Source: Nanobdellota archaeon
Lineage (GTDB): Archaea > Nanobdellota > Nanobdellia > SCGC-AAA011-G17 > GW2011-AR17
DNA length: 37,638 bases
Direction: 5' to 3'
NCBI GenBank assembly: GCA_018830945.1
Contig: JAHJRD010000056.1
Span: forward strand, 1-37,638
Made by a program: the position numbers and the translations under genes. Below the pieces are notes generated by a model. It had not been told where the DNA came from. It worked only from the letters and a program-made list of their open reading frames with translations, and did not search any database. Numbering within the stretch: position 1 is the stretch's first letter; each line of letters begins with the position of its first letter. Of this stretch, positions 2,786-33,911 are shown in pieces.

Positions 2786-4009
2786 ATGTTCAGGTTCAAG
2801 CACAAGCTGCCAAAGCATTCAGGCATTATTTTCCTTGTATCAACGCTTTACACACTTGTATTCGCAGTAGCCAGCCCTGTTTTTCCCCTTTTTATAAAAC
2901 AATTAGTGGGGCAGGATATGTATGTAGGGCTTGTTGTGGCATTATCGTCAGTTGAATGGATTATTTTCACAATAATGATGAGCTATTTCCTGAAAAAGAT
3001 TAAAAAAGCCCCTTTAACAAAGATAGCTCTTGCAGGATTTGCATTGTGCTATGCAATAATCCCTTTAGTCACAACATTATGGCAGTTTCTTATACTGGAT
3101 TTGTTCAGGTCATTGTTCGCAGCAGGCGCAACAGTCACGCTGGGGCTTTTCATAAGGGATGTTGCAGGAAAAAAGAACCTTGGAAAAGTGGAAGGGCTGT
3201 ATTTCACGCTCATTAATATTGCGTGGTTTGCCGGGCCTCTTGCAGGGGGATTTGTTGCAGCTATATTTTCCAAGTCTGTAACATTTTCGCTTGCAGCAAT
3301 AATAGCAGCCATTGCCTTATGCATCCTCATGGTCAGCAATGTAAAGGAAAAATCCCAGCCTGTGCAGTCTGAAGAAAGCATGATCACAAGGATAAAAGAT
3401 TTTTTCAGCACAAGAAATCTCACAATAATCTATCTGATTGCAATTGGGCTTGCAACATGGTGGACTGTGCTTTACACATACGTGCCATTGTTTATCACAG
3501 AGCATGGCTTTACAGAAAAAGCAGTGGGCATCACGCTTGCATTGTTCACAATACCGCTTATTATTTTTGACTTCATTGCAGGATGGCTGGCAGACAAGTA
3601 TGGATACAGGAGGTTCCTTGCATCTGCATTTCTCATAATGGCAATCCTGCTCATGGTGGCGGCATTCACTCAGAATGTATACTTGTTCATAGGGCTGATA
3701 GTTACAGGCTGCCTTGGAGCTGCATTTATTGAGCCGCTGCACGAGGCATACTTTTTCCATGCAGTCTCAAAAAAGTCAGAAATGCGCTTTTATCCTGTGT
3801 TCAGGACAGGCTATGAAGTTGGATATCTTATTGCGCCGTTAATATTTTCAGGCATAATGTTCCTTTCAAGCGGAAGCTTTTATGCGCTGTTCCTTGTTGC
3901 TGCATTAATGATGTTCTTCTTCTGCCTTATGGCTGTCTTGCTCAGGAAGATAAAAAAGAAAGGGGATATATCAGTCATAGTTGAAACTTCTGAAAAAGAG
4001 ATAGGCTAG
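2786..4009 (+). CDS. Major facilitator superfamily transporter
   Basis: About 12 hydrophobic segments; 'GWLADKYGYRRFLASAFLIMA' is an MFS A-like motif. Confidence 0.85.
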   Translation: MFRFKHKLPKHSGIIFLVSTLYTLVFAVASPVFPLFIKQLVGQDMYVGLVVALSSVEWIIFTIMMSYFLKKIKKAPLTKIALAGFALCYAIIPLVTTLWQFLILDLFRSLFAAGATVTLGLFIRDVAGKKNLGKVEGLYFTLINIAWFAGPLAGGFVAAIFSKSVTFSLAAIIAAIALCILMVSNVKEKSQPVQSEESMITRIKDFFSTRNLTIIYLIAIGLATWWTVLYTYVPLFITEHGFTEKAVGITLALFTIPLIIFDFIAGWLADKYGYRRFLASAFLIMAILLMVAAFTQNVYLFIGLIVTGCLGAAFIEPLHEAYFFHAVSKKSEMRFYPVFRTGYEVGYLIAPLIFSGIMFLSSGSFYALFLVAALMMFFFCLMAVLLRKIKKKGDISVIVETSEKEIG

Positions 4010-4743: not shown

Positions 4744-4755
4744 AGGTTTAAATAG
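4744..4755 (+). promoter_or_regulatory. Archaeal TATA-like element (GGTTTAAATAGG) upstream of the synthetase/MccF operon
   Basis: 'aaaggtttaaatagggggaggag' about 35 nt before the ATG at 4785; the same GGTTTAAA core occurs upstream of other genes here (15309, 35887). Confidence 0.5.
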
Positions 4756-4784: not shown

Positions 4785-5924
4785 ATGAAAGGCCCTTACC
4801 ATGCGAACCCGGATAAGACTGTTTCTTTTGTTGGCAATAAGATTTTTAAGGATATAGCAGATGTAGGCGCAGGGAAATTTCCTGCCGATGAAGCTTGCAA
4901 GAGAGTTAAGAGCCTTAAGAACGACCCGGCATGGGGGGCTATTGCGCGCATTAATCACAGGATTAATATAAGCGCAAACAATTATTTCGATGCAATTGGA
5001 GCTTTATTTACTGCCTTGCCATTAACTACGAGAATGATATCGTCTCCTGGCGCAGTTTATGGAAAGGAGGCAATAAGCTATACTACAGATACTTGCCCTA
5101 TAAAGATTGATTGGTTTGATTTACCTCATAAAGCCTTCCTTTCAGAATCATCCCAGATATATCTTGAGATGGCATTAATGCAGGAAGGGGTTAACCATGT
5201 TTATTCAATTTATAATTCCTTTAGAAAAGAACCAGGGGATTCTACTCATTTATCAGAATTTCATCATATTGAATATGAAGGCAAGATAAACCAAGAAGAA
5301 AATGAAAAAGCAGCATGGCTTCTGGTGCAAAACATGATTTCTGCCATACTGGGCAATAACCTAAAAGATTTGAGCTATTTTTTAAGCAGGCAGGATATTG
5401 CAGCGCTTGAAGAAATCGCCGCAGGCAAAGGTAAGCTGGAAAAAATAAGTTTTAAGGAAGCACTAAATATGTTATACCAAGATACAGGAGATACAAGATA
5501 CAATAAGTTTACCCTGGAAAATTGTTTTGGGGCATGGGAAGAAATAAGATTAACTGAGATTGTTGGTAGCGTAGTAGCAATAAAAGAATTTCCTTTGTTA
5601 GAAGTGCCATTTTACCATGCAGCTGTAAAGGGTAAGACGCCAAAAGTGGCTGATAATGCTGACTTTATCTGGCCCGGGTATAGGGAATTCATCGGAAGCG
5701 GGCAACGCGTTAAATCAAAGGCTGAACTTGAAGAAAAAGCCCGCATTTTTCAGCTTCCGAAGGATGATTACCAACCTTACATCCAGACAAGGGAACTGCC
5801 TGGTTACGCCCCTACATCGAGATTTGGCTTGGGTTGGGAAAGATTCCTCCAGGGGTTGTTAAAAATGCCGTATATATGGAGCGCCTGCCAATTTCCGAGA
5901 GTAGACACAACGCTTAAACCCTAA
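4785..5924 (+). CDS. Class II aaRS-like catalytic core, AsnRS/archaeal asparagine-synthetase-A-like (no recognisable OB-fold anticodon domain)
   Basis: 'AFLSESSQIYLEMALMQEGVNHVYSIYNSFRKE...HLSEFHHIEYE' (motif 2 of the AspRS/AsnRS group) and 'GYAPTSRFGLGWERFLQGLLKMPYIWSACQFPR' (motif 3). The N-terminus does not resemble an AsnRS OB-fold. Confidence 0.82.
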   Translation: MKGPYHANPDKTVSFVGNKIFKDIADVGAGKFPADEACKRVKSLKNDPAWGAIARINHRINISANNYFDAIGALFTALPLTTRMISSPGAVYGKEAISYTTDTCPIKIDWFDLPHKAFLSESSQIYLEMALMQEGVNHVYSIYNSFRKEPGDSTHLSEFHHIEYEGKINQEENEKAAWLLVQNMISAILGNNLKDLSYFLSRQDIAALEEIAAGKGKLEKISFKEALNMLYQDTGDTRYNKFTLENCFGAWEEIRLTEIVGSVVAIKEFPLLEVPFYHAAVKGKTPKVADNADFIWPGYREFIGSGQRVKSKAELEEKARIFQLPKDDYQPYIQTRELPGYAPTSRFGLGWERFLQGLLKMPYIWSACQFPRVDTTLKP

Positions 5925-5927
5925 AAA

Positions 5928-6794
5928 ATGAAAAAAACAATAAACAATTACGAACAGGAAGTAAAGGACTATTTTGCAAAAAAGGCATGCTTTTATGATG
6001 ATGTTGAAAAACAGGAATATTGGCGGCTTTCGGATAAGGTTCTCTGGTCTCTTTTGAAAGAACGGCTGGATAGGTTCCCTTCTGGTTTTAGATTTTTGGA
6101 TGCTGGCGGCGGAACAGGCAGATGGTCAAAAAAGATCCTCGAGAATTATCCTTTGTGCAATGGAATCCTCATTGATTTTTCAAAAGAGATGCTTGCTCAG
6201 GCAAAAAATAAAAATCAATATGGGAAAAGATGGACTATAAAGAGGGGGAATATCTATGATCTGAAATATATCAAAGCAGAAACAGTTGATATTGTGATAA
6301 ATACGCACAACGTACTTGGGTTCGTTAAGAATACTATGCAAGCCCTCTTAGAGATGAAAAGGGTTTTAAAAAATAATGGTTTGCTGGTCTCTGTTATCCC
6401 AAATAAATATCATGGCATATATTTTAATCTCCTGCTTGGCAATTTGGAAGGGGCAGAGTCTATAAAAAATAATTCCGGAGGAAAATTTGTGGAGGATATG
6501 CCTGAGATTCATATGTTCTCTCCAGCCTCAATAAAAGCTATGTATAAGGAAGCGGGTTTCGGCAATATAGTATGTTGGGGATTTCCTATATGCATATATC
6601 CGGGTTATAATGAAACAAGAGAAAAGGGGAATAGCATTCAGGCTGAAAAAAGCATTGCGGGCAGAATGGAACAAGTATTTAATATAGAAAATAGCTTGAT
6701 AAGGGATGAAGCATTGGCTGCGCGCGGAAATAATTTATTTGTTGTGGGCTACAAGCAAATGAAACAAAAATCGATAGTAAGGGCGGGAAGATGA
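5928..6794 (+). CDS. Class I SAM-dependent methyltransferase
   Basis: 'FRFLDAGGGTGRWSKKILENYPLCNGILIDFSKEMLAQAK' (motif I), 'VDIVINTHNVLGFV'. 3 nt gap after the upstream gene. Confidence 0.88.
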   Translation: MKKTINNYEQEVKDYFAKKACFYDDVEKQEYWRLSDKVLWSLLKERLDRFPSGFRFLDAGGGTGRWSKKILENYPLCNGILIDFSKEMLAQAKNKNQYGKRWTIKRGNIYDLKYIKAETVDIVINTHNVLGFVKNTMQALLEMKRVLKNNGLLVSVIPNKYHGIYFNLLLGNLEGAESIKNNSGGKFVEDMPEIHMFSPASIKAMYKEAGFGNIVCWGFPICIYPGYNETREKGNSIQAEKSIAGRMEQVFNIENSLIRDEALAARGNNLFVVGYKQMKQKSIVRAGR

Positions 6795-7963
6795 GGCTAT
6801 CAAAACAACCACGTCAAGAAAAACTGGCAATACCTGAAAATTGGAGTTTAATGGAATCATACAAATTATTTGAAGCTATGGGATGGGTAGAATTCCCATA
6901 TTCGGGAGTCCCTTCATACCTGCCAATTGGACAGAAGATGATTCGCAACATAATGGAGGTAATAAGGCGGAGATGCAATGAAGGGGAGTTTTGTGAGGTA
7001 TATCTCCCTCTTTTACAGCATAGACGTTTTCTGGAAAGCACAGGCAGAGATAAATTGTTTGGAAACGAGTTTATGCAGCTTACTGAACCGCTTGAAGGCA
7101 TGATTCTTAGCCCTACAAATGAAGAGATATATTTAGATACAATAAATAAAGGGTCAATTTCTTACCGGCAATTACCCATTAAGCTATTCCAGATTGCGGA
7201 TAAATTTAGGAATATTAAAAAGCCAAAGGGAATCCTCAGAAGCAAGCAGTTTTTGATGTGTGACATGGTATCAATTGACCGAGATAGTAAGTCGCTTAAT
7301 GCGACTGCAACCGGATTTGAGAGAATAGTAGAGAAAGTCATGGTTGAATTAGGACTGCATGCTTATAGGATAGAAAAAGAAGGGGAATCCTACGTGGATT
7401 ATCTTGTCCCCTGCAAAGAAGGGGAAACAATTATTAAAATAGAAGGGCAGACTGCAGTTTATGCCCCTCTCGGGGAAGATACGCATAAATCATCAAGTGT
7501 TGCCATGTATTTCCTCTTTGATGCCCCCATGAGGATTAAGTTTACAGACAAAGATGGTTTAATGAAGCCAGCCCACATAGGCACTTACGGCTTTGGGATT
7601 CAAAGATGCCTGCATGCAGTTGTCGAATCACATAGAGATAGGCAAGGGATTAATTTTCCAGAAGCAATCCGCCCATTTGATTTAAGTTTAATTGCGCTTG
7701 TTCCTGGAGAAGAGTGCGCCCAATATTATCAAGAGCTGAAGGATGCTGGTTTGAGAATCGTTTTTGATGACAGGCACGGCAAAACATTAAAAGAGAAAGC
7801 GGCATTTGCTGATTTTTATGGAACTCCATGGAAAATTATAATAGGAAGAAAAGAACTAGAAAAGGGTAGTGCCATCATGAAAAATAGAGAAGGTAATTTA
7901 GAAATGCAAGTAAGCTTGGCTAATCTGCCGACAGATATAAAGGAGAAGCTAAAGCATGATTAA
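6791..7963 (+). CDS. Prolyl-tRNA synthetase-like class II paralog (no room for the large ProRS editing insertion)
   Basis: 'YLPIGQKMIRNIMEVIRRR', 'SPTNEEIYLDTI', motif 2-like 'FRNIKKPKGILRSKQFLMCDMVSIDRD', motif 3-like 'GTYGFGIQRCLHAVVESHRDRQGINFPEAIRPFDLSLIAL'. 4-nt ATGA overlap with the upstream gene. Confidence 0.85.
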   Translation: MRLSKQPRQEKLAIPENWSLMESYKLFEAMGWVEFPYSGVPSYLPIGQKMIRNIMEVIRRRCNEGEFCEVYLPLLQHRRFLESTGRDKLFGNEFMQLTEPLEGMILSPTNEEIYLDTINKGSISYRQLPIKLFQIADKFRNIKKPKGILRSKQFLMCDMVSIDRDSKSLNATATGFERIVEKVMVELGLHAYRIEKEGESYVDYLVPCKEGETIIKIEGQTAVYAPLGEDTHKSSSVAMYFLFDAPMRIKFTDKDGLMKPAHIGTYGFGIQRCLHAVVESHRDRQGINFPEAIRPFDLSLIALVPGEECAQYYQELKDAGLRIVFDDRHGKTLKEKAAFADFYGTPWKIIIGRKELEKGSAIMKNREGNLEMQVSLANLPTDIKEKLKHD

Positions 7964-8978
7964 GCCGCAACCCCTTAAGAAAGGAGATACAATAGCATTT
8001 GTTGCGCCTTCGTTTGGCCTTAGCGCCCTATTCCCCCATAGGATAGAAAGAGCAAAATCCTTTTTGGAAAGCAAGGGGTTTAAGATTAAGATATATCCAT
8101 GCGTTAATAAAATAACAGAATTTGCGTGTGCAGGCACAGCTGAAGAGCGAGTAAGTGATATTCATTCAGCGTTCAAGGATAGCCAAGTCAAGGCAATAAT
8201 CTGCACAATCGGCGGGCTTGGCGCAAATGAACTTTTACCTCTTCTAGATTATAAGCTGATTAAGGATAATCCAAAAATATTTTGCGGGTATTCTGACATA
8301 AGTTTATTGCATTATGCTATCCACAAAAAAACAGGGCTTGTTACTTTTTACGGCCCATGTGCAATGCCGGAATTTGGCGAATACCCAGAGCCTTTTGGTT
8401 ATACTTATGAGCAGTTCTTAAAATCAGTAACTGGAAAAATAGGGGCAATTGAAGCATCTAAAGAATGGACAGACGAATTTTTAGATTGGGCAAAAAAAGA
8501 AGACCTTAAACAAAAAAGGCAAACAAATGTAAATCAGGGAGTTAAATGGCTGAAGCACGGGAAGGCTGAAGGAAAAATTATGGGCGGATGTCTCTCATCA
8601 ATTTTACAGTTAAAGGGCACTGAATATGATGTGGATTATGAAAGGAAGATACTATTCATAGAAATCCCTGAAGGGCAGGATATGAGCCATGGTGAACCTA
8701 TACTTTACGTAAAAAGTCAGCTTTATGATTTAAAAAATGCCGGTATCTTTAATAAGATAAAAGGCCTTATTGTTGGGAGAGCGTTTAGGTATTCTGTTGA
8801 AGACAGGCAAAGTTTTGATAAATTACTTAAATCAGTATGCCAAGATTATGATTTTCCTGTTCTTTCGAACTTTGATATAGGGCACACAGACCCGAAAGTC
8901 ACAATCCCGCTTGGAGTGCATGTTTCTATGGATTCGGAAAAAAATAGCGTCTCTTTTGATGAACAGGGAGTAGCATAA
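7956..8978 (+). CDS. MccF/LD-carboxypeptidase family S66 serine peptidase
   Basis: 'LKKGDTIAFVAPS', nucleophile region 'FCGYSDISLLHYAI', 'IMGGCLSSILQLKGT', 'LSNFDIGHTDPKVTIPLGV' (MccF-like GHTDP motif). 8-nt overlap with the upstream gene. Confidence 0.88.
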   Translation: MIKPQPLKKGDTIAFVAPSFGLSALFPHRIERAKSFLESKGFKIKIYPCVNKITEFACAGTAEERVSDIHSAFKDSQVKAIICTIGGLGANELLPLLDYKLIKDNPKIFCGYSDISLLHYAIHKKTGLVTFYGPCAMPEFGEYPEPFGYTYEQFLKSVTGKIGAIEASKEWTDEFLDWAKKEDLKQKRQTNVNQGVKWLKHGKAEGKIMGGCLSSILQLKGTEYDVDYERKILFIEIPEGQDMSHGEPILYVKSQLYDLKNAGIFNKIKGLIVGRAFRYSVEDRQSFDKLLKSVCQDYDFPVLSNFDIGHTDPKVTIPLGVHVSMDSEKNSVSFDEQGVA

Positions 8979-24278: not shown

Positions 24279-24755
24279 ATGGAATGCCGTGATAAGTGTA
24301 TTGGAAGGAGAATCGGAAAAATCATTGGTTTAGGTCTGATAGGGGCTTATGCCGCAGTTATGGGCTATGTTGGCTATAAAGTTGCCCACCAGGAACCCTA
24401 CGATTATACACATTATAAAATAGAGCCCTTGCCCTGCATCAGCCCAATCTCATGCTACAAAGATGCAAGCGGCACTTTTTTTGAACGTTGCTATCCAGAT
24501 GGGACAAGAATTAAGTTTGAAGACTATAACTCTGACGGGAAATTGGATGTAATCACAGATGGTTATGGCGGATGGTTTATGGCAGCAGAGCCAAAATATA
24601 ACTTTGAAAAAGGTGCATGGGAATATATAGAACCACACTTTCCTGAAGGATACCTGCACATGTTTGAAGAACTGCGCACTTCAGTGAAAGAAGAGGATAT
24701 GCCTGATAACTTTTACAGGTCCTGCGATTGCCCACCGTATCACTGCCCTTATTAG
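24279..24755 (+). CDS. Hypothetical single-TM exported protein with one EF-hand-like loop
   Basis: N-terminal TM 'IIGLGLIGAYAAVMGYVGYKV', Ca-binding-like 'DYNSDGKLDVI'; 4-nt convergent overlap with the lhr stop. Confidence 0.55.
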   Translation: MECRDKCIGRRIGKIIGLGLIGAYAAVMGYVGYKVAHQEPYDYTHYKIEPLPCISPISCYKDASGTFFERCYPDGTRIKFEDYNSDGKLDVITDGYGGWFMAAEPKYNFEKGAWEYIEPHFPEGYLHMFEELRTSVKEEDMPDNFYRSCDCPPYHCPY

Positions 24756-27700
24756 AGTTTCTTCTCTTTTCCCTGCTTCAACGACACTTTCGCAAGAACC
24801 ATCTGGTGCATTCTCTTCAGAAACTCCGCCTTGTCTTCCATTTTCATGATGTCTGAATAGCCCTGCGCAACCAGGTTAAAAGCAAAAGGCGAAGGCACAT
24901 CTGTCTGCACTTCACGAACTTTTATTTTCTCTTCCTCAACTGCTTTTAAAATCAGTTCAGCGCTTGCAATATCCATCTGGTCCTCAAGCACTTCTCTCCG
25001 CGCTTCTTTTAAAATTACAAAATCCTCTGAAATCCTGCGAACAGCAGCCAACAATATCATTGAAGCTGTCTGCTGCCTTCCAACATGCTTCCTGTGCCCT
25101 TTATACTCGCGCAAAATCATCATTGCCCTTCCTGCGCAGTGCCTGAACTTCCTTTTCAATGCCTCTGACTGCTCAATCGCATACTTTGCAACCTTGCGAA
25201 TCTCATTTGATTTTAACAATTTAAACGCCTTCATTGCATCAAAACCCTTTGAAGAAGACAATACAAACCCATTGTCGCTTATCCTAATGTCAACATCAAT
25301 ATGATATAATCTCCGCACTGCATACGCAACCACCCTTGAAAGCACATCATTAACGCGCCTCCCATACAATGTATGAAACACATCAAACCTGTTATTGCCG
25401 TCCTTGTAATGCTCAACAAGAATCTCTGTTTTATGCGGAATGCCCACATACCTGTGCTGCTCATTCAGGTAATTGTAAATAGCCCAGGCTGTTATATCTC
25501 CCACATAAAGGTTTGACTTGATAAAATCAACTATATTCTCTTTTTTATCCTTTCTTTTCAGCCTATCACTTACATTCTTCCTGAACTTTTGTATGCCCAT
25601 TGCCAAATCAAATGATAATGGCAATGACTCAGAGAACCAGGAAGGTATTGTCGGCTTTTGTCCTGAAGCAGACATTACCTGCGCAACAGTGCCCCGAGCA
25701 AACTTGAACTGGTAAACATTGCCGCCTAAAACAAACCTGTCCCCTGGCTTTAGTTTCTCAAGAAACCCCTCGTCAATTGTTCCAATCCTCTGGTTTCCAA
25801 TCTTGACAGTAACGCCTGATGAATCAGGAATTGTCCCAATGTTTGTCATGTAAATAACCCTTGTTGCCTTTCCTTTTCTTCCAATCATTCCTGTTTCCCT
25901 ATCATACCATATCTTTGCATAAACATGCCTGTCTTCCAAAGCAGCATACTCTCCAGCCAGATAAGAAAGAATCTCATCATAATCCTTCCATTCCAATGAT
26001 TGGTAGCAGTAGCTTTTCTTAATCATCTCATAAAGCTCTTTAACATTCCACTGGCTTTCCAATGCAATCCCAATTATCTGCTGGCCAAGCACATCACCGC
26101 AGTTTGTTGGTATTGAAACCCTGTCAATCTTTTTTTCCTTTGCATACTTCAGCAAGACAGAGCATTCAATCAAGTCATCCCTGTCCATTACTATTAATCT
26201 TCCATTCACTGTCTCGTGCATTTTGTGGCCTGCGCGGCCCGCCCTCTGAAGAAACCTTGCAACTGACTTCGGGCTTCCCAGGCATAGCACTAAATCAATA
26301 TAACCAATGTCAATGCCTAATTCCAATGATGTTGAAGAGACAACTGCTTTCAGCTTTCCTTCCCTTAATGAATCCTCTATCTGAAACCTGTGCTCTCTTG
26401 ACAATGAGCCGTGGTGCGCTCCAATCAGGCTTGCCACTGTCTTTGGAGGGCCTTCATGAATTTCATAGTAATTTCCCGGAAACTTTGCCTTCAAATGATG
26501 CACAACCCTTTCTGTGCCGCTTCTTGTGTTTGTGAATATCAGGGAAGTTTTGTGCGCTTGTATAAACGCGTCAATCATCTTGTATAAGTTGTTGTTTAAA
26601 GTGTCATAGCTTGTGTTGATTAAGTCATCTGCAGGAGAAAGAACATCCAGGTTTAATTTCTTTACAAACTGCACATCAATAAGCTTGCAATTCCTTCCAA
26701 TGCCGACTAAATACTTTGCAATCTCTTCCAAAGGGGCGATTGTTGCTGACAAGCCAACTCTTGCCATGCTTATGGAAAGCAGATTTAATCTTTCCATTGA
26801 AATTGACAAATGAACCCCCCTCTTATTCTCAGCCAGCGCATGCACTTCATCAATAATGCACCAGTCAATATTTCTCATGCATTCCTTGAATTTTATTGTT
26901 GAAAGGAGAATAGCTAAAGATTCAGGCGTTGTTATCAGTATATGGGGCGGCTTCTTCAGCATCTTTGCCTTTTCAGCCTGTGTTGTGTCAGATGTCCTTA
27001 CTCCAACTCTAATGCCTAAATCCTTTCCAGCCAGTTTTTCCATTTCTTTCAATGGCTCTAGCAGGTTTCTTTCAATGTCTCTTGATAATGCCCTTAAGGG
27101 GCTGATGTAAATGCAATATACTTTGTCCTGCAATATTCCTTTTTGGGCAGAGTCCACTAATTCATTAAGGACTGATAAAAAGGCAGTAAGTGTATTATGC
27201 AATATAATCCCCCCAAAGCCCCCCACAAAATTATGTATATTCGGCACTGTCAAATCAAAAACATTCCCTTCATAATCAAAAGAGGTTATGCTTTTTACCT
27301 TGAGCCATAGAATTGGAAGGCTAAGCAACTCATCTACCTCTTTAAGAAGCGGCTCTGAAGGCCATTTGTGCTTTAGTTTATTAGCAAGATTAGAGAGAGC
27401 AGTATAAGTGATAAATCCCGTTCGCCTGACAACTTCGTATATTTGCCCAATATCTTTCCTGAAATGCTCATCGTTTTTGTAATGCCTTGATAAAGCCCTT
27501 ATCTTTTTGTAATCAAAAGTAAACTTATTGACATAATTACCTGAAGGTTTAGATTTAATATGATTAATAATACGGCTCTTATGCCTGTGCTCTATGCCAA
27601 TAACATCAATAAACCCATTTAGGTTTGATACCTGCCTTATTGTCAGTGTATAATACTCTCTTTTTATTTTCTCTGCTGTGTTTGTTGCGCAGCCCATTTC

Positions 27701-29062
27701 TTTCCCAATTGAGCTGAAAATGCCGTTTGAAAGCAACAAATAGTTTATTACTTCTATCTTCTGCTTGTTCGCCTGAGAAATCTTAATCCCAGTATTTGTA
27801 AATGTTGCCTCAAGAGCGAAAAAAACATTCAAAAAATTGTTCTTAATCTCCCTTTTGCAATTCAATAGCCATTGCGGAAATTCTACATACCTGCCCCTTC
27901 CCCGATTAAATGAAAATAATTCGTTTAAGAAATAGCAAAATAAAGTGGAATAAACAACATAATCCCTCTCATTCTTTTTTACAAAGGATATATTGAAATA
28001 TTCTTTAGACATTTGCAGAAATTCATTTAAAAGCCCCATCTGGCTTTTTTGCGAAACTGCCAAATATGTACCCTTTTCATAATCTCCTATTAATCCCTCT
28101 GCCAAAACAAATGCAAGCCATCTCGCCAGCTTAATATCCAAAATCTTAGGGTAAGTGAAGGAGAAAGAATGCGTGCCGTATGTTTTGTATATGACCCTAT
28201 TTTTTTCAAAGCTTAACCCGGATAGTTTATCGTTCAAAAGCAATTCAAAAGCAGCCTTTCCATACTTAGTCTTGCAATGGACGATACGATAAATTTGGGA
28301 AAGCGATAATCCTGTTTCCTTCATAACTGCGCTGTAAGAAAGCCCTGCTAAAAGCAGCAGCTCTTTTGTTTCTTTAGGATTGATGCCGGAAAAATGCTTA
28401 AATCTCTTGGTTTTTTCCTTTAGGCGCAGAAAGTCATTGTAAGTCAAGCATATTTCTGCTTTTGCTTTAACAGAAGATATTGCTTTCTCCCATTCTAATT
28501 GTATCTCCTGTTCAGGAAGAATTATTTTCTTTGGGGCTGCGATCTTATCTCCCGCCATTAAGTCCTTTGCCTTTACCCAACCCTTGCCTTCAACCAGCAG
28601 GGGATGCTCCCTTGAAATCTTAACTTCCCTGCCATACTCTGTTTTTATCTTTAGAAGCTTATCTCTTGTTTTTTCAGAATAAACAAGCGCTTTTGCCTGC
28701 TTTATAGTATTGGCTTCATCAAAAGAAAATGAGCTTAAACCGGAAACTTCAAATAATTCGCCTGTTTTATCCACCTTTTTAAGTAATTTTCCCGCTTTTG
28801 CTTTTTCTATCAGCTCATGCCCGCTTACAAGCTTTGCAATGCCGTTTTCTGTAATAAGCACTGTTTCATCGGGAGTAAGGCATTTTGTAGAGCCTGTTGG
28901 AGCCGAGATTAGTATGTTGCTCCTTGAATGCACTTCCATGACGCCAAACAGCTGAGGAAGGCTGAATTCCTTGAATCTCGTAAAGAACCACTTCTGAACA
29001 AGAGGATTAAGCACATTCCTCAGTTCAGCTTCAGTGTTCGGCTTGTCTTTAATAGTTATCAT
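24752..29062 (-). CDS. lhr: Lhr-family DEAD/DEAH helicase interrupted in frame by an intein
   Basis: Extein halves 'ILISAPTGSTK' and 'TLTAFLSVLNEL', 'WCIIDEVHALAENKRGVHLSISMERL', 'VGLSATIAPLEEIAKYL', 'LELGIDIGYIDLVLCLGSPKSVARFLQRAGRAGH'. Confidence 0.93.
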   Translation of the reverse strand: MITIKDKPNTEAELRNVLNPLVQKWFFTRFKEFSLPQLFGVMEVHSRSNILISAPTGSTKCLTPDETVLITENGIAKLVSGHELIEKAKAGKLLKKVDKTGELFEVSGLSSFSFDEANTIKQAKALVYSEKTRDKLLKIKTEYGREVKISREHPLLVEGKGWVKAKDLMAGDKIAAPKKIILPEQEIQLEWEKAISSVKAKAEICLTYNDFLRLKEKTKRFKHFSGINPKETKELLLLAGLSYSAVMKETGLSLSQIYRIVHCKTKYGKAAFELLLNDKLSGLSFEKNRVIYKTYGTHSFSFTYPKILDIKLARWLAFVLAEGLIGDYEKGTYLAVSQKSQMGLLNEFLQMSKEYFNISFVKKNERDYVVYSTLFCYFLNELFSFNRGRGRYVEFPQWLLNCKREIKNNFLNVFFALEATFTNTGIKISQANKQKIEVINYLLLSNGIFSSIGKEMGCATNTAEKIKREYYTLTIRQVSNLNGFIDVIGIEHRHKSRIINHIKSKPSGNYVNKFTFDYKKIRALSRHYKNDEHFRKDIGQIYEVVRRTGFITYTALSNLANKLKHKWPSEPLLKEVDELLSLPILWLKVKSITSFDYEGNVFDLTVPNIHNFVGGFGGIILHNTLTAFLSVLNELVDSAQKGILQDKVYCIYISPLRALSRDIERNLLEPLKEMEKLAGKDLGIRVGVRTSDTTQAEKAKMLKKPPHILITTPESLAILLSTIKFKECMRNIDWCIIDEVHALAENKRGVHLSISMERLNLLSISMARVGLSATIAPLEEIAKYLVGIGRNCKLIDVQFVKKLNLDVLSPADDLINTSYDTLNNNLYKMIDAFIQAHKTSLIFTNTRSGTERVVHHLKAKFPGNYYEIHEGPPKTVASLIGAHHGSLSREHRFQIEDSLREGKLKAVVSSTSLELGIDIGYIDLVLCLGSPKSVARFLQRAGRAGHKMHETVNGRLIVMDRDDLIECSVLLKYAKEKKIDRVSIPTNCGDVLGQQIIGIALESQWNVKELYEMIKKSYCYQSLEWKDYDEILSYLAGEYAALEDRHVYAKIWYDRETGMIGRKGKATRVIYMTNIGTIPDSSGVTVKIGNQRIGTIDEGFLEKLKPGDRFVLGGNVYQFKFARGTVAQVMSASGQKPTIPSWFSESLPLSFDLAMGIQKFRKNVSDRLKRKDKKENIVDFIKSNLYVGDITAWAIYNYLNEQHRYVGIPHKTEILVEHYKDGNNRFDVFHTLYGRRVNDVLSRVVAYAVRRLYHIDVDIRISDNGFVLSSSKGFDAMKAFKLLKSNEIRKVAKYAIEQSEALKRKFRHCAGRAMMILREYKGHRKHVGRQQTASMILLAAVRRISEDFVILKEARREVLEDQMDIASAELILKAVEEEKIKVREVQTDVPSPFAFNLVAQGYSDIMKMEDKAEFLKRMHQMVLAKVSLKQGKEKKL
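27194..28882 (-). mobile_element. Intein in lhr (563 aa) with LAGLIDADG-like homing endonuclease region
   Basis: Starts Cys61 'CLTPDETVLITENG', block B 'REVKISREHPLLVEGKGWVKAKDLMAGDKI', DOD-like 'LAFVLAEGLIGD', ends 'VFDLTVPNIHNFVGGFGGIILHN' followed by Thr. Splice restores APTGSTK^TLTAF. Confidence 0.92.
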
Positions 29063-31265: not shown

Positions 31266-33911
31266 ATGCCTTTTGACATAATTATAGGAAGGGACGCTGA
31301 AGACACAAAGATGTTAGGCAATAAAGGCGTTGTATTAATAGGAAAATCCTATGTAAAGATGGGAAGAAACACTTCTTTGTCAAACCCATTGCATATGGAC
31401 ATTGCAAGGGGCCACGTTATCTATATTGTAGGCAAGAGAGGAAGTGGAAAGTGCCTTACAGGAGATACTTTAATACAATTAGATGATGGTACGCAAATAC
31501 CTATACAGGAATTGAAAAATAATCAAAATAAAATATTTGGCATTAATGACAAGCTGAAAATAGATGCAATGGGAAAAGAAGATTTCTTTGAAAGGGAAGT
31601 TGATTCTATCGTAAAGATGAAAATGAGAAGCGGCAGGGAAATCAAGCTTACGCCCGAACACCCTTTATTAACAATACAAGGATGGATACCTGCAAACCAG
31701 CTTACATTAGGAGACAGGATTGCTGTTCCAAGGAATATCCCTGCATTTGGCAAAGAAGACTTGCCTGAACACGAGGCAAAGCTGATGGCTTATTTGATTG
31801 CAGAAGGCCATACAAAAGGGAGAGTAATATTGTTTAGCAATACCGATGAAAAGCTTGTTTCAGATTTCAAAGATGCCCTAAACAAATTTGATACAAATAT
31901 GGAACTTGTAGAAGACAACCAGGGATGCTACAGGGTAAGATCAAGAGAGCTAAGGCAGGGCGTGCTAAGCTATAATATAAAAAGAGATTTGCTTGGAAGG
32001 TTTGGCAAGGGGACAAGCATAGAGCATAAGAAAAAGAGCATAAGGGTATTTTCTGAAAAAGCAGGCATGCATAACCTCCTTTCTGCGCAGAAGGTTATTC
32101 CGGATATCATCTTCAAGACAAAAAAAGATACCCTTAAAATATTCCTTAACCGCCTTTTTAGCTGCGATGGAAGCATTTACAGGCTTAAGACAGAAAGCTC
32201 ATGGGAAGTTTCATATGCTTCAAGCTCTGAAAAGCTTACAAGGCAGGTTCAAAGCCTTTTGTTAAGGTTTGGAATACTTTCAAAGAAGAGAAACAAAAAA
32301 ATAAAATGCAACGGAAAGCTGTTCAATACATTTGAGCTTGCGATTGACGGTGCCAATGTTCAGAAATTTATAGAAGAAATAGGATTTTTCGGTGAGAAAG
32401 AATCTAAGCAGGAGCAGGCTCTGAAGGAATCAGTTAAAATTACCAGAAACCCCAATGTTGATACAATACCCAAAGAGATATGGGATATATACAGACCAAA
32501 GAATTGGGCTAATGTTGGAACGCAAATGGGTTATTCGTCTGGAAAAGCATTAAGGTCAAGCATTGCATATGCACCTTCAAGGCAGAAATTATTGCAGATA
32601 GCAGAATATGACAATGCAGAGCAGATGAAACTTCTTGCAACATCAGACATATTTTGGGATGAGATTACAAGCCTTGAAGTAATGGAAGGAAAATTTAAAG
32701 TCTATGACATCTGCGTGCCTGAATTTCATAATTTTGTTGCAAATGACATAATTGTCCACAACTCATACACTATGGGCGCAATAGCCGAAGGAGTGATGGA
32801 CCTGCCTGATGAAATAAGAAACAACCTTTCAATGATTATGATGGACACAATGGGCATTTACTGGACAATGAAATACCCCAACCAGAAGGATGAGGATTTA
32901 TTAGAACTGTGGGGATTGGAAGGCAAGGGAATGGATGTGAAAATATACACGCCTGCTGGTTTTTTCGAGCAATACAAAGAGCAGGGAATACCAACTGATG
33001 AGCCTTTCTCCATTAACCCCTCTGACCTGACATCACAGGACTGGATACTGGGCTTTGAGCTTGACAACAGCAACCCGGTAGCAATACTCATAGAAAAGAC
33101 TTTAGGGGACATGGCTGATGAAGGCATTAATGATTACAGCATTGCAGACATAATGGAGAGGGTAAACTCAGACACAAGCTTTTCGCAGGACACAAAGAAT
33201 GAGGCAGTAAACAGGTTCAGGGCAGCTGAAAGATGGGGCTTGTTTAGTGAAAAAGGAATGGACTTGATGGAACTTGTGCAGCCAGGCCAGATTACAATAT
33301 TGGATTTATCTCCTTATGTTGCAACTCCAGGCGGATGGGGTGTTAAGGCTTTGGTTTTAGGGCTTGTAAGCATGAGAGTATTTACGCAAAGAATGATGGC
33401 AAGAAAAGCAGAAGAATTAGAAGCAATCAAAGTAGGGTACAGTTATTTTCAGGCTGCTGAGGAATTAGGAAAGAAAGAGCCTTTGCCTTTGGTTTGGCTG
33501 GTAATAGATGAAGCGCATGAGTTTTTGCCAAAAGAGGGAAAAACAGCTGCGTCTGACGCACTAATCACAATCATGAGGGAAGGAAGGCAGCCAGGTGTTT
33601 GCTTAATCCTTGCTTCACAACAGCCTGGCAAGATTCATTCTGATGTAATGAGCCAGTCAGACATTGTCATAGCGCACAGGTTAACTGCAAAGCCTGATGT
33701 TGATGCATTGGCTTCAATGTCACAGAGCTATCTTGCAAAATCACTCCCAAGGTTATTGGATGAATTGCCGAGAGTGAAGGGCGCTGCAATCATATTAGAT
33801 GATAATTCAGAAAGGTTCTATCCAATGAGAGTAAGGCCGCGTTTAACATGGCACGGAGGGGCTGCTCCATCTGCAGTGAAATACAAGAGAAAGGTTCAGT
33901 TTGAGCTGTAA
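31266..33911 (+). CDS. HerA/DUF87-like hexameric ATPase interrupted in frame by an intein
   Basis: Extein halves 'HVIYIVGKRGSGK' and 'SYTMGAIAEGV', 'LPLVWLVIDEAHEFLPKEGKTAASDALITIMREGRQPGVCLILASQQPGKI'. Confidence 0.92.
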   Translation: MPFDIIIGRDAEDTKMLGNKGVVLIGKSYVKMGRNTSLSNPLHMDIARGHVIYIVGKRGSGKCLTGDTLIQLDDGTQIPIQELKNNQNKIFGINDKLKIDAMGKEDFFEREVDSIVKMKMRSGREIKLTPEHPLLTIQGWIPANQLTLGDRIAVPRNIPAFGKEDLPEHEAKLMAYLIAEGHTKGRVILFSNTDEKLVSDFKDALNKFDTNMELVEDNQGCYRVRSRELRQGVLSYNIKRDLLGRFGKGTSIEHKKKSIRVFSEKAGMHNLLSAQKVIPDIIFKTKKDTLKIFLNRLFSCDGSIYRLKTESSWEVSYASSSEKLTRQVQSLLLRFGILSKKRNKKIKCNGKLFNTFELAIDGANVQKFIEEIGFFGEKESKQEQALKESVKITRNPNVDTIPKEIWDIYRPKNWANVGTQMGYSSGKALRSSIAYAPSRQKLLQIAEYDNAEQMKLLATSDIFWDEITSLEVMEGKFKVYDICVPEFHNFVANDIIVHNSYTMGAIAEGVMDLPDEIRNNLSMIMMDTMGIYWTMKYPNQKDEDLLELWGLEGKGMDVKIYTPAGFFEQYKEQGIPTDEPFSINPSDLTSQDWILGFELDNSNPVAILIEKTLGDMADEGINDYSIADIMERVNSDTSFSQDTKNEAVNRFRAAERWGLFSEKGMDLMELVQPGQITILDLSPYVATPGGWGVKALVLGLVSMRVFTQRMMARKAEELEAIKVGYSYFQAAEELGKKEPLPLVWLVIDEAHEFLPKEGKTAASDALITIMREGRQPGVCLILASQQPGKIHSDVMSQSDIVIAHRLTAKPDVDALASMSQSYLAKSLPRLLDELPRVKGAAIILDDNSERFYPMRVRPRLTWHGGAAPSAVKYKRKVQFEL
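31452..32762 (+). mobile_element. Intein in the HerA-like ATPase (437 aa) with LAGLIDADG homing endonuclease region
   Basis: Starts 'CLTGDTLIQLDDGTQIPIQEL', block B 'REIKLTPEHPLLTIQGWIPANQLTLGDRIAVP', DOD motifs 'LMAYLIAEGH' and 'FLNRLFSCDGSI', ends 'VYDICVPEFHNFVANDIIVHN' followed by Ser. Splice restores GKRGSGK^SYTMG. Confidence 0.94.

Follow-up and report, generated by a model that had tools for sequence, protein, structure and literature searches.

We examined a 37,638-nt contig (JAHJRD010000056.1, positions 1 to 37,638 of the forward strand; hereafter the window) from the Nanobdellota archaeon assembly GCA_018830945.1, and focused on an operon of four genes which very probably encodes an aminoacyl-nucleotide cassette related to AgnA, the truncated synthetase of the agrocin 84 pathway. 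The genes run head to tail with a 3-nt gap between genes 1 and 2, a 4-nt overlap between genes 2 and 3 and an 8-nt overlap between genes 3 and 4, and the predicted TATA-like box TTTAAATA lies about 31 nt ahead of the gene 1 ATG, leaving a short leader or none (Table 1). A sequence-only reading of this stretch had described this arrangement, and the open reading frame coordinates together with the sequence confirm it. Domain and profile matches also bear out the gene families it had named, an asparaginyl-tRNA synthetase (AsnRS)-like core, an S-adenosylmethionine (SAM)-dependent methyltransferase, a prolyl-tRNA synthetase (ProRS)-like protein and an MccF-like peptidase.

Table 1. Features of the operon and its upstream flank (window coordinates).
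Feature	Position	Strand	Length	Remark
TATA-like box TTTAAATA	about 4747-4754	+		read from sequence; consensus match only, predicted
gene 1 (protein P0001), AgnA-type core	4785-5924	+	379 aa	
gene 2 (protein P0002), class I SAM-dependent methyltransferase	5928-6794	+	288 aa	
gene 3 (protein P0003), divergent bacterial-type ProRS paralog	6791-7963	+	390 aa	
gene 4 (protein P0004), MccF-type S66 peptidase	7956-8978	+	340 aa	
Major facilitator superfamily (MFS) transporter	2786-4009	+		PF07690; 0.8 kb upstream of operon

P0001 consists of a tRNA-synt_2 catalytic core (PF00152) without the N-terminal anticodon-binding domain, and its N-terminus is family-specific (GPY...GN). Its top NCBIfam matches were to AsnRS, far under the cut-off, and the PDB structures closest to its AlphaFold2 (AF2) model (predicted local distance difference test, pLDDT, 90.5) were the AsnRS entries 9sh8 and 1x54. 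Class II motif 2 (F146, R147, E149) and motif 3 (G348, G350, E352, R353) are present and, like residues E163 and R308, invariant across 32 homologs. E163 and R308 align with E228 and R364 of P. horikoshii AsnRS, which recognize the side-chain amide in AsnRS. Since the class II ATP motifs and E163/R308 are all kept, gene 1 is predicted to encode an adenylating enzyme that should adenylate asparagine or aspartate. Because the anticodon domain is absent, the core probably does not charge tRNA, its product probably being passed on or rearranged.

Gene 1 had also been called AsnA-like. Archaeal asparagine synthetase A (3p8t) is likewise an AsnRS-derived core without an anticodon domain; however, P0001 matches AsnRS far better (1x54, E=2e-42, versus 3p8t, E=2e-12) and the genes linked to it are cassette genes. 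Neither the window genome nor any of 59 relatives has a gene above the asparagine synthetase A cut-off, and with this result (0/60 genomes) and the weak 3p8t match the assignment is not supported. AsnRS/AgnA-like is thus the better label, as the top solved structures also indicate.

P0003 contains tRNA-synt_2b and HGTP_anticodon domains, and its top matches were bacterial ProRS, again under the cut-off. The INS insertion is missing and the anticodon-domain fold is kept; the closest PDB structure to the AF2 model (pLDDT 89.6) was R. palustris ProRS, 2i4n. P0003 keeps the proline-binding TxE residues, the motif-2 Arg (R140) and the motif-3 Arg (R272), and the divergent clade to which it belongs has lost the motif-2 Glu of FRDE.

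If genes 1 and 3 were the housekeeping AsnRS and ProRS, each should be the only copy. We found that the window genome separately encodes AsnRS (C74), a bacterial-type AspRS (C33), LysRS-II (C81) and an archaeal-type ProRS (C63), while the synthetase-like copies of the operon score far below the equivalog cut-offs. Thus the ProRS of the operon is not the only one, both housekeeping enzymes that the sequence-only reading had proposed to look for are present, and a housekeeping role for genes 1 and 3 is rejected.

P0002 has Methyltransf_11 (PF08241)/PF13649 domains. Two types of methyltransferase, A and B, occur among the clusters; P0002 is of type B, its relatives adjoin the core in 8 loci, and it is 46% identical to the methyltransferase of L044/L066. 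In two clusters a DUF34/NIF3 protein is found beside the methyltransferase (L056:9245-10153 and L080:2151-3038). P0004 carries the N and C domains of Peptidase_S66 (PF02016/PF17676), and its top PDB matches were MccF (E=3e-56). The Ser-Glu-His residues and the W..W loop of P0004 align with MccF, in which the tryptophan loop contacts the nucleobase. P0004 is therefore predicted to be an immunity (or processing) hydrolase.

To describe the recurrence of the operon we scanned the species-genome collection once with a profile, which yielded 38 loci; all linkage counts refer to the 30 loci with usable flanks, the upstream flanks serving as internal control. The core occurs in Woesearchaeota, Pacearchaeota, Nanoarchaeota, Micrarchaeota, Marsarchaeota and Aenigmatarchaeota, in the haloarchaea Natrinema and Halomicroarcula, in several candidate phyla radiation (CPR) bacteria and in metagenome-assembled genomes labelled Zixibacteria and Microcoleus. 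True orthologs of gene 1 (42-66% identity) were present in 7/147 relatives, sporadically and outside the window's own family, and in 11/380 genomes of a wider draw from the phylum that includes the window genome. No core ortholog was found in three genomes of the same genus. At locus L045:2063-3200 (genome G040; the same locus as L078) the core is a decaying copy broken by in-frame stops.

The partners of the core recur with it. A methyltransferase was found in 24 of the 30 loci, an additional aminoacyl-tRNA synthetase (aaRS)-like gene in 24, an S66 peptidase in 20, a HIT protein in 6 and an amidohydrolase in 4. At least one partner family lies nearby in 30/30 loci, and methyltransferase, S66 and aaRS occur together in 17, so that the four families are not neighbors in the window only. 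The linkage is directional: 20 loci carry S66 downstream of the core against one with it upstream, over similar lengths of sequence (227 and 219 kb; p=2e-5), and the methyltransferase is downstream in 24 and upstream in 2. S66 was also more frequent in genomes with a core ortholog (6/8, window included) than in relatives without one (22/~140); the Fisher test, entered as 6/7 versus 22/140, gave p=2e-4, with little change for 6/8. A virus-borne cassette was rejected, as a scan of viral contigs gave one distant match at 25% and phage records gave matches of 22-29%. The operon has a GC content of 0.38-0.41, equal to that of its surroundings, so it is not a foreign island by composition.

A divergently transcribed Lrp-like regulator, probably dedicated, lies about 1 kb upstream (start to start) of the core in L055, L056, L061, L082 and L089. 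In the Natrinema loci L073 and L075 the core is followed by an ATP-binding cassette (ABC) ATPase, a permease and S66, and a type A methyltransferase and the single LeuRS gene are located about 3-4 kb upstream of it. A related type of cluster that lacks the AgnA core was seen in two genomes near that of the window, one of the same genus (L122:2543-4529 and L123:3580-7999); it has an NVLPG-type methyltransferase and S66 adjoining dCTP-deaminase-like genes, and in L123 also a short AlaRS-like protein and what seems to be a class I LysRS.

The aaRS-like partner is not the same everywhere. It is ProRS-like in the window and in L056, L058-L060, L062, L065, L070, L077, L082 and L086, AlaRS-like in L057, L085 and L087, LysRS-like in L054 and L055, AspRS-like in L066 and LeuRS-like in L081 and L082; the LeuRS is a duplicate in the genome of L081. 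Some loci hold two genes of one specificity side by side, ProRS-like in L056, L060 and L086 and AlaRS-like in L085 and L087, and where such pairs were scored (L056, L085) one member is near-canonical and the other divergent. These pairs match the logic of AcmD and AcmF of Streptomyces ascamycin: AcmD, a canonical AlaRS, charges tRNA and is resistant to the product, and the truncated, AlaRS-like AcmF uses Ala-tRNA to acylate the nucleoside sulfamate (PMC12945691). The likeness, a canonical synthetase with a truncated divergent paralog, extends to the ProRS and AlaRS pairs of L056, L060 and L085-L087. In contrast, ascamycin is a sulfamate nucleoside, the account consulted describes no AgnA-type core or S66 for it, and the window holds the divergent half of the pair only.

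The hydrolases at these loci belong to families of known immunity enzymes. Microcin C-like aminoacyl phosphoramidates are inactivated by MccF (an L,D-carboxypeptidase of family S66), MccG (S51) and MccH (HIT): the first two cleave the amide of the aminoacyl-phosphoramidate nucleotides, the third the P-N bond (PMC7157772, PMC9239234). The mark of MccH is a HIT protein in which Lys replaces the third His of the triad, HxHxK (PMC7157772). We found that the HIT proteins of 7/7 loci have HxHxK and are without the N-terminal His, and that in L062 an S51 protein of the MccG type replaces S66. The presence of MccF, MccG and MccH types is the strongest hint that the product would contain an aminoacyl-nucleotide amide, probably P-N linked. 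The same three families, with the MccF-like residues and MccH-like HxHxK, make up the likeness to microcin C. Microcin C proper was rejected, since no ThiF-type MccB was present among the recurrent neighbor families or annotated neighbors of the loci. No precursor peptide gene was present among these neighbors either, in which no search aimed at short peptide genes was made. In another DPANN genome (L105:4198-6469) an S66 gene directly follows what appears to be a full-length AsnRS; the two could form a resistance pair or represent a second type of cluster.

A tblastn search of plasmids with gene 1 matched pAgK84, the agrocin 84 plasmid of Agrobacterium radiobacter K84. AgnA is described as an AsnRS homolog that is truncated and lacks the anticodon domain (PMC4392301), AgnB2 is an immunity LeuRS (PMC4392301; PMC5059758), and in TM84, the toxic part of agrocin 84, an N-acyl phosphoramidate replaces the mixed anhydride of Leu-AMP (PMC5059758). 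P0001 is related to AgnA at E=5e-24 with only 27% identity, and the pAgK84 S66 protein shares 33% identity with P0004 over the length of the latter (E=4e-62). On pAgK84 a methyltransferase and AgnB2 come after the core AgnA, and the other arm of the region encodes the S66 peptidase together with an amidohydrolase and a second methyltransferase. Identity between the agn methyltransferase and the archaeal type A enzyme is 47-49%. An AsnRS core without anticodon domain, an extra aaRS, S66, a methyltransferase (homologous to the agn enzyme in relatives of the operon) and, again in relatives, an amidohydrolase are common to both; the amidohydrolase is a shared annotation only, since the agn protein had no BLAST match among the archaeal amidohydrolases. 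The two differ in that agn uses a LeuRS module where the window has ProRS, and in that agn comprises about 17 genes, with NUDIX, ABC transporter and short-chain dehydrogenase/reductase (SDR) genes also in the region; the window has the other methyltransferase type and an archaeal host.

Similar gene sets were found on plasmids of Xenorhabdus, Exiguobacterium, Peribacillus, Bradyrhizobium and Bacillus pseudomycoides, and Xenorhabdus has core, methyltransferase, S66, LeuRS and a P0003-clade protein in one stretch. In a careful tree the archaeal cores (support 97/96) and the bacterial AgnA-type cores (100/100) were sisters (96/91), apart from AsnRS. The operon had been put forward as a new system with no described archaeal counterpart. 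Our literature searches found no report of AgnA-type clusters in archaea, nor of modular aaRS swapping, and this part stands; the system is not wholly new, as it is an archaeal branch of the AgnA-type clusters, a kind known from one experimentally studied antibiotic.

Taken together, these comparisons make it probable that we are dealing with a minimal cassette of the AgnA (agrocin 84) type, which produces a stable prolyl-AMP mimic that would block protein synthesis and which protects its producer. Comparative genomics strongly supports the earlier proposal that a metabolite resembling an aminoacyl-adenylate is made, modified or detoxified by the operon, with MccF-type immunity. From homology we infer each reaction, the P-N bond, the proline and any antibiotic role as follows. 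The AgnA-type core would activate asparagine or aspartate with ATP and form a nucleotide-amide (P-N) group without charging tRNA. The divergent ProRS paralog would then add proline or an analog to the nucleotide; the donor could be prolyl-tRNA, by analogy with the use of Ala-tRNA by AcmF, or an adenylate formed by the paralog itself. The methyltransferase would decorate the product, and the MccF-type peptidase would hydrolyze the amide that joins acyl group and nucleotide, either for immunity or to trim the product. We lean toward phosphoramidate chemistry for the product, and consider the case for a prolyl product evenly balanced. Such a compound does occur in nature: phosmidosine of Streptomyces, a prolyl phosphoramidate of 8-oxoadenosine that is O-methylated, is the type of product expected of a core, a methyltransferase and a ProRS. 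This likeness is one of structure and a lead only. A review lists phosmidosine as a phosphoramidate nucleotide.

Several observations weigh against a minimal AgnA-type cassette. The reaction of AgnA itself is a prediction in the sources consulted, and P0002 matched agn_MT1 at E=0.005 only, so the methyltransferase of the window is not of the agrocin type. The branches of the tree are long and a clade of core plus AsnRS was not rejected (approximately unbiased test, p-AU 0.39), which leaves the moderately supported grouping of core and AgnA favored and not settled. The LeuRS near the core in Natrinema is the sole LeuRS of the genome, so an aaRS gene beside the core need not be a dedicated paralog. 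DPANN genomes also contain S66 genes on their own, and the archaeal loci have no dedicated exporter or peptide/sugar carrier in common. This last point, with tiny and probably host-attached cells, would also suit a non-toxic intracellular metabolite, such as a modified dipeptide, osmolyte or cofactor, made by tRNA-independent amide ligation, with the S66, S51 and asparaginase-type proteins as processing hydrolases. Such Asp-X hydrolases (S66, S51, Asparaginase_2, amidohydrolase) do interchange among the loci, and some protective metabolites are products of aaRS-like ligases, the mycothiol enzyme for example; however, the genes shared with agrocin 84, the MccH-type HIT proteins, the aaRS duplicates of one specificity and the sporadic distribution fit antagonism better, and we regard this explanation as rather improbable. 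Within the cassette that we favor, a secreted toxin and an internal product appear about equally plausible.

The cassette could also have a mainly defensive purpose, in which S66 destroys foreign aminoacyl-nucleotide antibiotics, the extra ProRS stands in for the target as a resistant copy, as AgnB2 does for LeuRS, and the methyltransferase inactivates the compound. Immunity through a second, resistant aaRS is well established (PMC9437257; AgnB2), the MccF, MccG and MccH types are immunity enzymes, and in the window genome a bacterial-type ProRS paralog does exist beside the archaeal one. But plain resistance gives no role to an AgnA-type core and a methyltransferase, the loss of the motif-2 Glu in the P0003 clade and its score far below the ProRS cut-off are a poor fit to a spare translation enzyme, and some loci have near-canonical partners beside the divergent copy. 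We therefore consider pure defense unlikely, if marginally less so than the intracellular metabolite. Finally, stray aaRS fragments and an S66 gene joined by chance, as ordinary housekeeping or decay, would agree with the stop-broken core of L045; the housekeeping copies elsewhere in the genome, and motifs and linkage conserved in 30 loci of archaea and bacteria, refute this reading, to which we give almost no weight.

The surroundings of the operon are archaeal, and the contig encodes a proteasome subunit and the KH/beta-CASP termination factor FttA. The MFS transporter upstream is a possible exporter whose membership in the operon is uncertain. MFS genes are present in the Xenorhabdus, Exiguobacterium and Peribacillus clusters too; among the neighbor families of the archaeal clusters no MFS group recurred. 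Two further genes of the window, a superfamily 2 (Lhr-like) helicase (24752-29062, minus strand) and a HerA-like ATPase (31266-33911, plus strand), appear from their translations to be interrupted by inteins.

In relatives of the operon the proline module is swapped for a leucine, alanine, lysine or aspartate/asparagine module, and the family would thus consist of aaRS-directed, Trojan-horse-like nucleotides of differing specificity. We tentatively suggest that DPANN and other archaea run modular agrocin-like pathways in which phosphoramidate nucleotides of proline, leucine, alanine, lysine and aspartate/asparagine, put together by freestanding enzymes of aaRS descent, may serve as weapons against neighbors or hosts. 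These would be the first nucleotide Trojan-horse antibiotics of archaea, and the aaRS paralog present would reveal the specificity of each. The idea could be tested on the related loci of cultivated Natrinema strains and on those carried by plasmids in Xenorhabdus, Exiguobacterium, Peribacillus and Bradyrhizobium. Some MccH, MccG and MccF homologs now labelled as standalone resistance genes may belong to such cassettes. If the proposal is correct, the nearly solitary agrocin 84 pathway would become a broad, modular family that crosses domains, the target of each product would be predictable from the aaRS paralog in its operon, the building of a P-N bond by an AsnRS-derived enzyme could be dissected, and DPANN archaea would have a plausible chemical weapon.

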